Of a DNA stretch of 64,000 bases, positions 5,507 to 56,362 are shown piece by piece. Origin of the DNA: Haploplasma modicum ATCC 29102. GTDB taxonomy: Bacteria; Bacillota_I; Bacilli_A; Acholeplasmatales; Acholeplasmataceae. Position 1 is the stretch's first letter. Every line of letters begins with the position of its first letter. Made by a program: the position numbers and the translations under genes. The DNA is taken from positions 1 through 64,000 of the forward strand of contig NZ_JHYB01000002.1 in the NCBI RefSeq assembly GCF_000687835.1, in the 5' to 3' direction. The notes beneath the pieces were generated by a model. It searched no databases, was not told the origin of the DNA, and was given only the letters and a program-made list of their open reading frames with translations.

Positions 5507-5983
5507 ATGGGTTTATTTAAAAAATGGCGTGCAAAGAAAGCAGCTAAAAAACAATTGAAAGAGCAACAAAATAAAGACTTGATTAATAGGGTTGATGAAA
5601 AACCAACTAATGTAAAACCTGAAGAAAAACAATCACCAACACCAAAACCAACTGAAGAAGTTATTGAGCAAAAAAAAGTAGTTGAGCCTAAAAAAGAAGA
5701 AGAGACAAAAAAAGAAGCTACTGTAAAAAAAGCAGAAACTGAAACAAAGACAGAACCTGCAAAAGAAGTAAAACCGGTTAAGTATCATGTTTCTCAAAAC
5801 AAAGATGAAAATAGCCAGTTTTATAAAAAGTGGCGTGTTAGAAAACAAGGATCACAAAAAGTAATTAAATATTTTGATACACAAAAAGAGGCGATTGTTT
5901 ATGCTGAAGATTTAGCAGCAAAAGCAGGCACCCAAATTGTTATTCATAAATTAGATGGATCAATTAGAAAGCAAAAGTATTAA
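5507..5983 (+). CDS. DUF2188 domain protein with a Lys/Glu-rich linker
   Basis: The 158-residue product has three parts: a strongly basic N terminus (GLFKKWRAKKAAKKQ), a low-complexity linker of Lys, Glu, Pro and Thr at about 25-95, and a C-terminal DUF2188-like domain (YHVSQNKD, KKWRVRKQGSQKVIKYFDTQKEAIVYAEDLA). The domain's function is unknown. There is no signal peptide or membrane segment. The linker suggests a tethered cytoplasmic protein, perhaps binding nucleic acid or membrane through its basic end, but that is only a guess. It has a GGAGG ribosome-binding site and stands alone. Confidence 0.8.
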   Translation: MGLFKKWRAKKAAKKQLKEQQNKDLINRVDEKPTNVKPEEKQSPTPKPTEEVIEQKKVVEPKKEEETKKEATVKKAETETKTEPAKEVKPVKYHVSQNKDENSQFYKKWRVRKQGSQKVIKYFDTQKEAIVYAEDLAAKAGTQIVIHKLDGSIRKQKY

Positions 5984-6004
5984 TTTATTTAATACTTTTT
6001 TTTA
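5973..6004 (+). terminator. Terminator between convergent genes
   Basis: An 11-bp stem, AAAAGTATTAA (5973-5983) with TTAATACTTTT (5989-5999), loop TTTAT, followed by T on the plus strand. It overlaps the stop codon of the DUF2188 gene and faces the end of the reverse GDPD gene; the reverse reading has only a short T tail. Confidence 0.85.
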
Positions 6005-15708: not shown

Positions 15709-15723
15709 CAATTAAATATAAAA

Positions 15724-15937
15724 CTTTGAGAAGTCATAGTAATATCAATTAGTTTATTTAAGCGAGTGTATGATAGTGAAAGATACATAATAAATGTGAT
15801 ACGAATTCAACTTTGAGTGGTACTAATCATACCCGGGTAATTCCGTTAAAAATATAAGAGTGCTAGAGTAATCTAGAACTAAGGTGGTACCGCGTATAAC
15901 ATACGTCCTTAGATATAAGGACGTATGTTTTTATTTT
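15724..15937 (+). promoter_or_regulatory. T-box leader of pheST (tRNA-Phe sensing)
   Basis: This leader has the parts of a T-box riboswitch: an AGCGAG/GTGAAAG stem-I loop region, a specifier loop GAATTCAA with codon TTC (15806-15808) for Phe, the CCGTTA...GAGTG block, and the T-box AAGGTGGTACCGCG (15881-15894), whose TGGT would pair with the ACCA end of uncharged tRNA-Phe. A terminator follows at 15898-15937. Uncharged tRNA-Phe should favour the antiterminator and raise pheST expression. The 5' end is approximate, and no clear promoter was found. Confidence 0.93.
15898..15937 (+). terminator. Regulated terminator of the pheST T-box
   Basis: A 13-bp stem, AACATACGTCCTT with AAGGACGTATGTT, loop AGATAT, then a T-rich tail. 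Its 5' arm follows directly on the T-box sequence. Confidence 0.92.
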
Positions 15938-23179: not shown

Positions 23180-24844
23180 ATGGCTAATAGTAAATTAAGC
23201 GGAACTCTATTTAAAAAAATGGTTACAAACGGTGCAGTTAATTTAAAAAATAATCATAAAGAAATTGATAACTTAAATGTTTTTCCAGTACCAGATGGTG
23301 ATACAGGAACAAATATGCAAATGACAATGATGGCTGGAATTAAAGAAGTAAAAAATAATAAAACTGATTCAATTCAAGATATTTCAAAAATATTATCACG
23401 TGGACTATTAATGGGAGCTAGAGGTAACTCAGGAGTTATTCTGTCTCAGTTTTTCCGCGGACTTTATTCTGAAATTGCAAAAATCGACAGCGACTCAGTC
23501 AGTGTTGATGATTTCATCCAAGCTTTAGTTGGTGGTTACCAAATGTCTTATCGCGCCGTAATGGATCCTGTTGAAGGAACTATTTTAACTGTTGTTAGAG
23601 AATCTGCAGAAAAAGTATTACAAGAAAGAAAAAACTTAAAATCAATAGATGAAGTGTTAAAAGTTTATTTAACACAAGCAAAAGAAACATTAATTAAAAC
23701 TCCAGACTTATTACCAGTCTTAAAAGAAGCAGGTGTAGTAGATAGTGGTGGAGCAGGATTTATTAAAATTGTTGAAGGTTGGATGATGGCACTTAATGGT
23801 CAAGAAATTCAAGAAGAACAACAATATGTAGAACAAAATAGTTTTGTACATGAACATAACGAAATTGGGGCACATAACTTAGGTGAAATTGATATTAAAT
23901 TTGGTTACTGTACTGAATTTATTGTTAAATTATTTGATTATGAAAAATTTGATGAAAAATTCATGAGAGAACCTTTATCACAAATGGGTGATTCATTAGT
24001 AGTTGTAACTGATGAAGACTTATTAAAAGTACACGTTCATACAAATCAACCAGGGGTTGCTTTAACACTTGCTCAAAAATATGGTGAGTTACAAACAATT
24101 AAAGTTGATAACATGAGAAATCAACATAGTAATATTATGAATAGTGAAAAAGAAGTTACCAAAATAGAAACACCAAAACAAAAGTCTAAATATGCTTTAA
24201 TTTCAGTAGCATCAGGCGAAGGTATTAAAGAAGTATTTTTAGAATTAGGTGTTGACCGAGTAATTAGTGGTGGACAAACAATGAATCCATCAACTGAAGA
24301 CTTTGTAAAAGCAATTAATGAGTTAAATGCCGAAAATATTATTATTTTACCAAATAACTCAAATATTATTTTAACAGCTGAACAAACAGTTGAACTTTGT
24401 CCAGAATACAATATTAGAGTACTTAAGACAAAGAGTATTGCTCAAGGATATAGTTCATTAATTTCTTTTGATCCAACAATGAAAATTGATGAAAATATTG
24501 AAGCAATGACTGAATCAATTACAAACATGAAATCAGGCGAAGTAACATATGCAATCCGCGACACTGAAATGAAAGGTGTTAAGATTAAAGAAGGTGACTT
24601 CATTGGTATTTCAAGTAGTGAAATTAAAGTTTCAACAAATAATAAAGTTGAAACAACAAATAATTTAATTGATCTTTTATTAAGTGATGAAAGTGAAATA
24701 ATTACTGTATTTTATGGCCTTGACGTATTAGATGAAGAATTAGATGAAGTTATTTCTCATATTAATACAAAAGCACCTGATATTGAAGTAGAAATCATTG
24801 AAGGTAAACAAGATATTTATTCATTTATAATTGCAGTTGAATAA
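23180..24844 (+). CDS. fakA: Fatty acid kinase ATP-binding subunit FakA (YloV)
   Basis: The 554-residue protein has the DhaL-type kinase domain at about 1-200 (FPVPDGDTGTNMQMTM with the metal-binding Asp residues, and SRGLLMGARGNSGVILSQ), then the FakA middle domain (DIKFGYCTEFIVK, VHVHTNQPG) and a C-terminal domain. With a fatty-acid-binding FakB partner (not in this window) it phosphorylates exogenous fatty acids for phospholipid synthesis. In B. subtilis the Asp23-like yloU lies between rpmB and this gene; it is missing here and a structured leader occupies the space. Confidence 0.94.
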   Translation: MANSKLSGTLFKKMVTNGAVNLKNNHKEIDNLNVFPVPDGDTGTNMQMTMMAGIKEVKNNKTDSIQDISKILSRGLLMGARGNSGVILSQFFRGLYSEIAKIDSDSVSVDDFIQALVGGYQMSYRAVMDPVEGTILTVVRESAEKVLQERKNLKSIDEVLKVYLTQAKETLIKTPDLLPVLKEAGVVDSGGAGFIKIVEGWMMALNGQEIQEEQQYVEQNSFVHEHNEIGAHNLGEIDIKFGYCTEFIVKLFDYEKFDEKFMREPLSQMGDSLVVVTDEDLLKVHVHTNQPGVALTLAQKYGELQTIKVDNMRNQHSNIMNSEKEVTKIETPKQKSKYALISVASGEGIKEVFLELGVDRVISGGQTMNPSTEDFVKAINELNAENIIILPNNSNIILTAEQTVELCPEYNIRVLKTKSIAQGYSSLISFDPTMKIDENIEAMTESITNMKSGEVTYAIRDTEMKGVKIKEGDFIGISSSEIKVSTNNKVETTNNLIDLLLSDESEIITVFYGLDVLDEELDEVISHINTKAPDIEVEIIEGKQDIYSFIIAVE

Positions 24845-24861
24845 TTAATTACATTAAATTA

Positions 24862-24892
24862 ATAGGCTTAGTTTAAATAACTAGGCCTTTTA
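24862..24892 (+). terminator. Terminator of fakA
   Basis: AGGCTTAGTT (24864-24873) pairs with AACTAGGCCT (24879-24888), loop TAAAT, then a short T tail. Confidence 0.85.
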
Positions 24893-24979
24893 ATGTTATA
24901 AATATTTAAAAATAAATCACTTTGATTTGTTATACTGATTCAATATTAAAATTTAATTTCATTTTTGATTAAAACAGAT

Positions 24980-25054
24980 TATAATTTAACAAAGTTGCAA
25001 AGGGATATAACTTGCGCTAGATTAAGTTCTGATGGATCTCGCAACTTTTTCTTT
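24980..25054 (+). ncRNA. Candidate small structured RNA with its own terminator
   Basis: The 24893-25183 interval has no open frame. A TATAAT at 24980-24985 would start an RNA at about 24991. From there the sequence folds into one long arm: AAAGTTGC (24991-24998) with GCAACTTT (25041-25048), GGGAT with ATCTC, and AACTT (25009-25013) with AAGTT (25024-25028), closed by a 10-base loop. A T run (25046-25050, then CTTT) follows. It may be a roughly 60-nt small RNA or a complex terminator. No -35 is clear, and I could not match it to 4.5S, 6S, tmRNA or RNase P RNA. Confidence 0.45.
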
Positions 25055-25099
25055 CTAATTATAAATTTTACAGGTTTTATTAAATGAATCAAAACATTA

Positions 25100-25128
25100 T
25101 TGTTTTTTTTCGTTTTTTAGTGTATAAT
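25100..25128 (+). promoter_or_regulatory. Promoter of tRNA-Leu
   Basis: TTGTTT (25100-25105) and TATAAT (25123-25128), spacer 17. A precursor leader of about 50 bases precedes the tRNA. Confidence 0.7.
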
Positions 25129-25183
25129 TAATCACAGAAAATTAAATATAAAACACCTTAGATAAAGAGTGATATATGTAATT

Positions 25184-25269
25184 GCGAAACTGGTGGAATG
25201 GTAGACACGCTATCTTGAGGGGGTAGTGGACGTAAGTCTGTAAGGGTTCAAGTCCCTTGTTTCGCACCA
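25184..25269 (+). tRNA. tRNA-Leu (anticodon GAG)
   Basis: Acceptor GCGAAAC pairs with GTTTCGC, the anticodon arm CTATC-TTGAGGG-GGTAG carries GAG, a long variable arm (TGGACGTAAGTCTGT) marks it as class II, and CCA is encoded. Confidence 0.95.
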
Positions 25270-35594: not shown

Positions 35595-35626
35595 GACTCC
35601 TGAGACTTTTCTTAGGGGTCTTTTTT
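35595..35626 (+). terminator. Terminator upstream of tpx
   Basis: GACTCCTGAG (35595-35604) with CTTAGGGGTC (35611-35620) including G-U pairs, loop ACTTTT, then six T. Confidence 0.9.
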
Positions 35627-47510: not shown

Positions 47511-47715
47511 AATAACGAAGAAGAGGACACGATTAATTTAGAAATTAGCGACGTAGGTTAGTGAAAGCTACGAACATAAATTAATTACTACCTTGGAGTT
47601 GGCATTGCCCGGGTAATTCCGTTAAAGATCAAATGAGTGCTAGGAAACTAGAACTAAGGTGGTACCGCGTAAATTTACGTCCTTAGATATTAATATATCT
47701 AGGGATTTTTTTATT
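47511..47715 (+). promoter_or_regulatory. T-box leader of thrS (tRNA-Thr sensing)
   Basis: It contains the stem-I GTGAAAG region, a specifier loop ATTACTACC with Thr codon ACT (47587-47589; ACC at 47590 is the alternative), the CCCGGGTAATTCCGTTAAA block shared base for base with the pheST leader, and the T-box AAGGTGGTACCGCG (47656-47669). A terminator ends it. Uncharged tRNA-Thr should switch thrS on. Confidence 0.93.
47680..47715 (+). terminator. Regulated terminator of the thrS T-box
   Basis: TCCTTAGATAT (47680-47690) with ATATCTAGGGA (47695-47705), loop TAAT, then seven T. Confidence 0.9.
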
Positions 47716-56293: not shown

Positions 56294-56362
56294 TAAATAG
56301 TATTATATAAACATTTAAGGGGCGTATAATACTCGCCCCTTAATCATAGTGAAGGTGAGAAA

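Follow-up and report, generated by a model that had tools for sequence, protein, structure and literature searches.

A hairpin element between fakA and tRNA-Leu as a candidate small RNA with paired changes in two other genomes

The spacer between fakA and tRNA-Leu(GAG) in Haploplasma modicum ATCC 29102 contains a hairpin RNA element at 24991-25048 on the + strand of the window, which is the whole stretch of 64,000 nucleotides analysed here from a genome of 1.22 Mb. We consider it fairly probable that this element is transcribed on its own as a small RNA of about 60 nt, which terminates itself and acts in trans through a conserved strand. Matching paired changes in two other genomes suggest that the hairpin RNA gene is real, and the small RNA is, on present evidence, restricted to a few Acholeplasmataceae. 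The family comprises three sequences in total, namely, that of the window, that of a congeneric genome (G001) and that of a genome from another genus (G015), which is probably Acholeplasma palmae J233.

The -10 box, hairpin and T run that were described in the first-pass annotation are present at 24980-24985 (TATAAT), 24991-25048 and 25046-25050 (TTTTT), respectively, all on the + strand. The outer helix, P1, is formed by the 5′ arm AAAGTTGC (24991-24998) and the 3′ arm GCAACTTT (25041-25048), and the next helix, P2, is formed by GGGAT (25002-25006) and ATCTC (25036-25040). A start 6-7 nt past TATAAT falls at about 24992, within the first paired bases, as had been predicted, and the predicted transcript extends from there to about 25050, with the T run, three of whose T are able to pair, as the predicted termination site. 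According to the accessible text of PMC5138195, the distance from the -10 box to the start in the mollicutes mapped there is most often 6 nt and can also be 5 or 7, and the promoters of A. laidlawii have a pronounced -35 box. The predicted promoter of the element has no good -35; at a spacing of 16-18, no hexamer matches a -35 box at more than 3 of 6 positions. TATAAT occurs in 97 + strand copies in the window. A script that looked for stems with 7 or more pairs and a T run found 16, and a -10-like box lies just upstream of four of them, the element included; a simple promoter/terminator scan lists neither the promoter of the element nor its hairpin.

As a single sequence, the window hairpin is not beyond chance by folding. 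Its energy is -12.3 kcal/mol (z -0.89), 36 of 200 shuffles are at least as stable, and folding is unremarkable for all three copies taken alone (z -0.77 to -1.67). By G+C composition and by comparison with relatives, the hairpin is beyond chance. The G+C content is 42% in 24994-25045 versus 13% upstream and 18% downstream. When islands were defined as 52-base stretches with at least 40% G+C outside ATG frames of at least 80 codons, the window contained 13, the hairpin element among them. The other 12 comprise six with rRNA or tRNA genes, a T-box leader, a T-box-like leader (by eye), two short frames (70 and 76 codons), a terminator-like hairpin at 35595-35620 and the stretch 56308-56362. The last is a small island (40%) between two frames and matches no assigned feature. 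Separately, we observed a second T-box-like leader in the window at 47560-47710, where AAGGTGGTACCGCG is followed by a terminator-like hairpin; unlike the T-box at 15717-15913, it is absent from the gathering-level Rfam matches.

The comparison with relatives was based on R1, a covariance model whose only input was the window hairpin; it was run over 88 family genomes and matched seven of them at E up to 1. The matches at G001:882816-882878 (E 2.1e-6) and G015:314386-314450 (E 2.1e-4) align with the window hairpin over its full length, and the next match, in G098, has an E of 0.018. In the alignment of the three sequences, P2 (columns 12-16 with 49-53) is paired in 100% of cells, and four of its five pairs have changed on both sides, which is the covariation in related genomes that had been named as a check. 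In P1, 91.7% of cells are paired, with both-side changes at one pair. For the whole structure, 94.1% of cells are paired versus 39-49% when the 3′ partners are slid. The covariation score was reached by 5 of 500 column shuffles; the count of further pair types was reached by 309 of 500 and is not above the shuffles. A conserved structure with covariation, as expected of a trans-acting small RNA gene, is present here in three sequences only. These homologs with compensatory changes in two other genomes lend support to the free-standing small RNA that was proposed in the first-pass annotation, and the alignment supports the formation of P1 and P2, with a conserved strand, AYAUAAYUU, on the 5′ side, level with the top of P2 and above it.

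Chance could also account for the similarity among the three genomes, in which case the window hairpin would be functionless; we regard this as improbable. The explanation draws on the number of sequences, which is only three, on the rough calibration of the E-values, and on weak model matches elsewhere, such as that in G454 (E 4.1e-4), some of which lie inside coding frames. However, a control in order-2 random sequence (3.22 billion positions), which is independent of the Infernal calibration, yielded 1,112 stretches that agree with the 5′ core at 18 or more of 24 positions, of which a single one has both stems as well. The threshold was picked at the level of G001, which has 18 of 24 matches; G015 has 19 of 24. 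For the 88 genomes (approximately 0.1 billion bases, both strands), the chance expectation is approximately 0.07 such matches, a rough value that derives from one random event. The both-side changes in P2 also argue against chance, as does the fact that, of the two further genomes of the genus, the more complete one has the best match. A point against the family is the remaining one, G002 (93% complete, 210 contigs), in which R2, the covariance model built from the three sequences, has no match.

Inside P2, the comparison departs from the earlier description of a three-segment hairpin. Three segments are indeed present in the minimum-energy fold of the window hairpin alone, but the third helix (AACTTG at 25009-25014 with TAAGTT at 25023-25028, + strand) is not conserved; 55.6% of its cells are paired across the three sequences, and none of its pairs has changed on both sides. 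RNAalifold also returns P1 and P2, with an inner helix that differs from that of the earlier fold. Because the consensus inner helix used for R2 is unfavourable in the window sequence (-2.2 kcal/mol versus -11.8 kcal/mol for the earlier fold), we claim only P1 and P2. The conserved bases are GTTRCAAA, followed by AYATAAYTT-N-C-N-C and then by TGRNGG on the 5′ side of the P2 3′ arm. In the window, the conserved strand is ATATAACTT (25005-25013, + strand; consensus AYATAAYTT), whose first two bases are within P2, and the conserved 3′ strand is TGATGG (25030-25035, + strand; consensus TGRNGG). On the basis of this conservation, we propose the conserved strand beyond its two P2 bases as the functional site. 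The 10-base apical loop, GCGCTAGATT, had been put forward as the working part, a role that the comparison does not support, and both its sequence and its length vary among the copies. A search of the window for complements of the loop, which had been suggested as a check, gave 23 near-complements, the element included, versus 23.9 expected. The complement of the conserved strand has six matches in the window, the element included, versus 3.3 expected; 11 of 100 shuffles reach six, and we do not count this as evidence.

A further explanation is that the element encodes a short peptide, in a 40-codon TTG frame at 24965-25087. Each of the three copies keeps this frame open across most of the element, and the starting residues are similar (LQRDIT, LQRNII and LQKNIT). 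However, a stop lies just upstream in G001, after which no ATG, GTG or TTG occurs ahead of the conserved part, and the lengths and ends of the frames differ. Moreover, base-pairing accounts for the changes in P2. We therefore regard a peptide as extremely improbable.

The fakA stop (the gene label is that of the first-pass annotation) is at 24842-24844, and tRNA-Leu(GAG) lies downstream of the element at 25184-25269; fakA and the tRNA gene together occupy 23180-25269. The distance between them is 339 bases, or approximately 295 bases if measured from the end of the terminator-like hairpin of fakA (24864-24888, + strand), which forms the upstream boundary of the element. Relatives of fakA are mainly from Acholeplasmataceae. 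Among 30 fakA loci (29 relatives and the window), tRNA-Leu(GAG) is at most 600 bases from fakA in 27 and is absent there in two, and one locus is too short to read. The spacer is 26-160 bases in 26 of these 27 loci and 339 bases in the window; thus, the hairpin element is extra sequence in a compact and conserved neighbourhood. The order of fakA and tRNA-Leu(GAG) was also observed in six of the seven phytoplasma loci that were read.

According to the first-pass annotation, a hairpin that merely terminates read-through from fakA would count against a small RNA. In its general form, this alternative holds that the element does not function as an RNA and serves only as a back-up intrinsic terminator, which would catch fakA read-through in the window and act on other genes elsewhere. 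The element has the stem and T run of an intrinsic terminator, with the T run directly after the outer stem; it lacks the loop of 3-8 nt, and 42 nt lie between the P1 arms. The terminator-like hairpin of fakA carries a short T tract (TTTTAATG), and the G001 copy directly adjoins the end of a convergent gene, a site at which termination would be of use. However, a terminator has no need of the conserved AYAUAAYUU and TGRNGG strands, or of the 42-45 nt that separate the P1 arms. Furthermore, fakA already has a terminator-like hairpin, and, as judged by eye, a hairpin with a T run also follows fakA in many relatives. The 68-base spacer between fakA and tRNA-Leu in the congener G001 has no hairpin such as the element, and neither the G001 copy nor the G015 copy sits downstream of fakA, which disfavours the fakA explanation in particular. 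We consider a terminator without RNA function possible but unlikely.

The neighbours of the three copies differ. The G001 copy lies downstream of a small same-strand frame that is HTH-like and abuts the end of the convergent frame; the next same-strand ATG frame (at least 70 codons, filtered) is about 5.8 kb away, and a 90-codon GTG frame, antisense to the long gene, begins within the element. The G015 copy lies approximately 67 bases past the last partial CRISPR repeat and 277 bases before a 199-codon frame. These differences argue against both a mere fakA terminator and a leader of a single gene. A cis-acting leader that controls the downstream gene through its terminator, such as a riboswitch or attenuator, is in our judgement very improbable, even though some riboswitches are short hairpins that combine conserved bases with a T run, according to the accessible text of PMC8632094. 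The same kind of gene is not found downstream in each of the three genomes, tRNA-Leu in the window is preceded by a separate TATAAT at 25123 (TTGTTT lies 17 bases upstream of that box), and the element has no Rfam match.

The upstream sequences of the two other copies also differ from that of the window. In G015, TACAAT lies 7 nt before the GTTGC of the hairpin, for which the window equivalent is 8 nt, and the T run is TTTT only. In G001, the nearest TATAAT ends 18 nt 5′ of the hairpin; a promoter-like TTGACT/TAAAAT lies further up, so the transcript there may be a longer, two-hairpin RNA. A second hairpin, ATGAAGG with CCTTCAT, was observed just upstream of the G001 copy (L110 1570-1625, minus strand). 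It lies behind TTGACT/TAAAAT, and the 131-base stretch folds better than shuffles (z -2.91).

Because the G015 copy sits just past a CRISPR array, a likeness to tracrRNA was considered and rejected, as the combination of an anti-repeat and cas9 was not found at the element. The best non-array anti-repeat of G015 is elsewhere (L121 about 5881-5960), past the cas9 frames and ahead of a frame judged cas1-like by eye. The cas9 profile TIGR01865 matched one of eight genomes, G015 only, with no match in G000 or G001. Therefore, the array is probably an incidental neighbour. The accessible text of PMC6882279 describes a degraded CRISPR/Cas9 system in A. palmae J233 that is not found in 11 other acholeplasma genomes, and the probable identity of G015 draws on this. 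As a side observation, G015 has, at L121 about 5880-5990, a likely tracrRNA whose anti-repeat fits the 36-base CRISPR repeat, and it adjoins a cas9 match with in-frame stops.

Searches with R2 found no further convincing copy in the order, class, phylum or family genome sets, which overlap. Among 160 order genomes, 25 were matched at E up to 0.5, and the best match after the three copies (0.0017) is within a coding frame. Six of 395 class genomes were matched at E up to 0.05, with G454 the best after the three, and five of 392 phylum genomes were matched at E up to 0.01. Sets of more than 40 genomes were searched with stricter filters, under which weak matches are lost; with laxer filters, 15 of 38 family genomes were matched at E up to 1, and the best after the three was 0.0115. 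We aligned 15 weak R2 matches, G454 and L122 among them, and attribute them to chance, since parts are broken or missing. G454 was set aside because the stems are kept and the conserved strand is missing, and L122 lies inside a coding frame. The weaker R1 matches were likewise set aside as chance. Of these, L112 lies inside a pheT-like frame, and L113 aligns as a near-copy of L112. Pairs are broken in both L114 and L115, and L116-L118 cover the inner 33 bases only, with L116 within a transposase-like frame.

In DNA-level searches, the 339-base interval had matches in all 61 genomes searched at E up to 10; the best listed outside its own genome was 1.1e-5, and none of the matches listed spans the hairpin (query 147-204). 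Within its own genome, the next match has an E of 0.037. Among phages, 215 records were matched at E up to 10, and the 20 listed have a lowest E of 0.3 with none covering 80% of the query; among plasmids, 430 records were matched at E up to 10, and the 20 listed have a lowest E of 0.8, again with none covering 80% of the query. In viral contigs, an exact pattern had no match and a degenerate pattern found five, for which R2 gave four matches at E up to 1, the best being 0.17. A mobile repeat is ruled out by the single full-length match per genome in each of the three genomes.

The element resembles several known RNAs in part. According to the accessible text of PMC8632094, structured RNAs have been found as G+C-rich intergenic regions (the GC-IGR approach), with one Acholeplasma motif described as the aroF leader uORFC-13-1; the element is not among the motifs given in that text. 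Like these RNAs, it is a structured, G+C-rich patch within an A+T-rich spacer, shows covariation and ends like a terminator, but it differs in being drawn from three genomes only and in being absent from Rfam 15. With the HMP-PP and guanidine-IV riboswitches in the same text, the element shares a strong stem, a T run and conserved bases inside, whereas it has no shared downstream gene and its conserved bases are beside and above P2 rather than at the tip. No gathering-level match in Rfam 15 overlaps the element in the window; a laxer search of the interval gave one 18-base match elsewhere in the interval (E 7.2), and among the matches of the three loci at E up to 5, none overlaps the element. 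SRP RNA is rejected because the single RF00169 match of each of the three genomes lies elsewhere. A full-text literature search that returned titles and abstract starts and covered few subscription journals found no description of the element.

6S RNA is likewise a hairpin with a conserved A+U-rich opening. Across the three copies, the conserved strand holds a -10-like hexamer (TATAAC, CATAAT and CATAAC), and a strand that resembles a -10 element in a bubble could bind RNA polymerase. By this analogy, the element might be a minimal functional stand-in for 6S RNA, which we consider highly improbable. The element is about one third of the 187-position 6S model, and RF00013 matched none of the three genomes at E up to 1, whereas it matched 6 of 14 controls, four of them over the cut-off. 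If the element were such a stand-in, it would be a polymerase-binding RNA in bacteria in which RF00013 finds no 6S RNA.

Taken as a small RNA gene of its own, the element would work as follows. RNA polymerase would start at about 24992 from TATAAT and transcribe the whole hairpin; P1 would then act as the terminator, and the polymerase would stop at the T run. The AYAUAAYUU strand, rather than the apical loop, would be the working part, and the RNA may act in trans, either base-pairing with a target RNA or binding to a protein; this action is the weakest step of the proposal. The element is probably a new and narrowly distributed small RNA of an ordinary kind, with firmer support from comparison than the first-pass annotation could offer. 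A reading of the raw sequence, based on a -10 box, a hairpin and a T run, can find an element that is supported by comparison despite an unimpressive folding statistic, and the comparison shifts the likely functional part of that element. Moreover, what was an unproven hairpin becomes a testable small-RNA family in bacteria that are wall-less and have reduced genomes.
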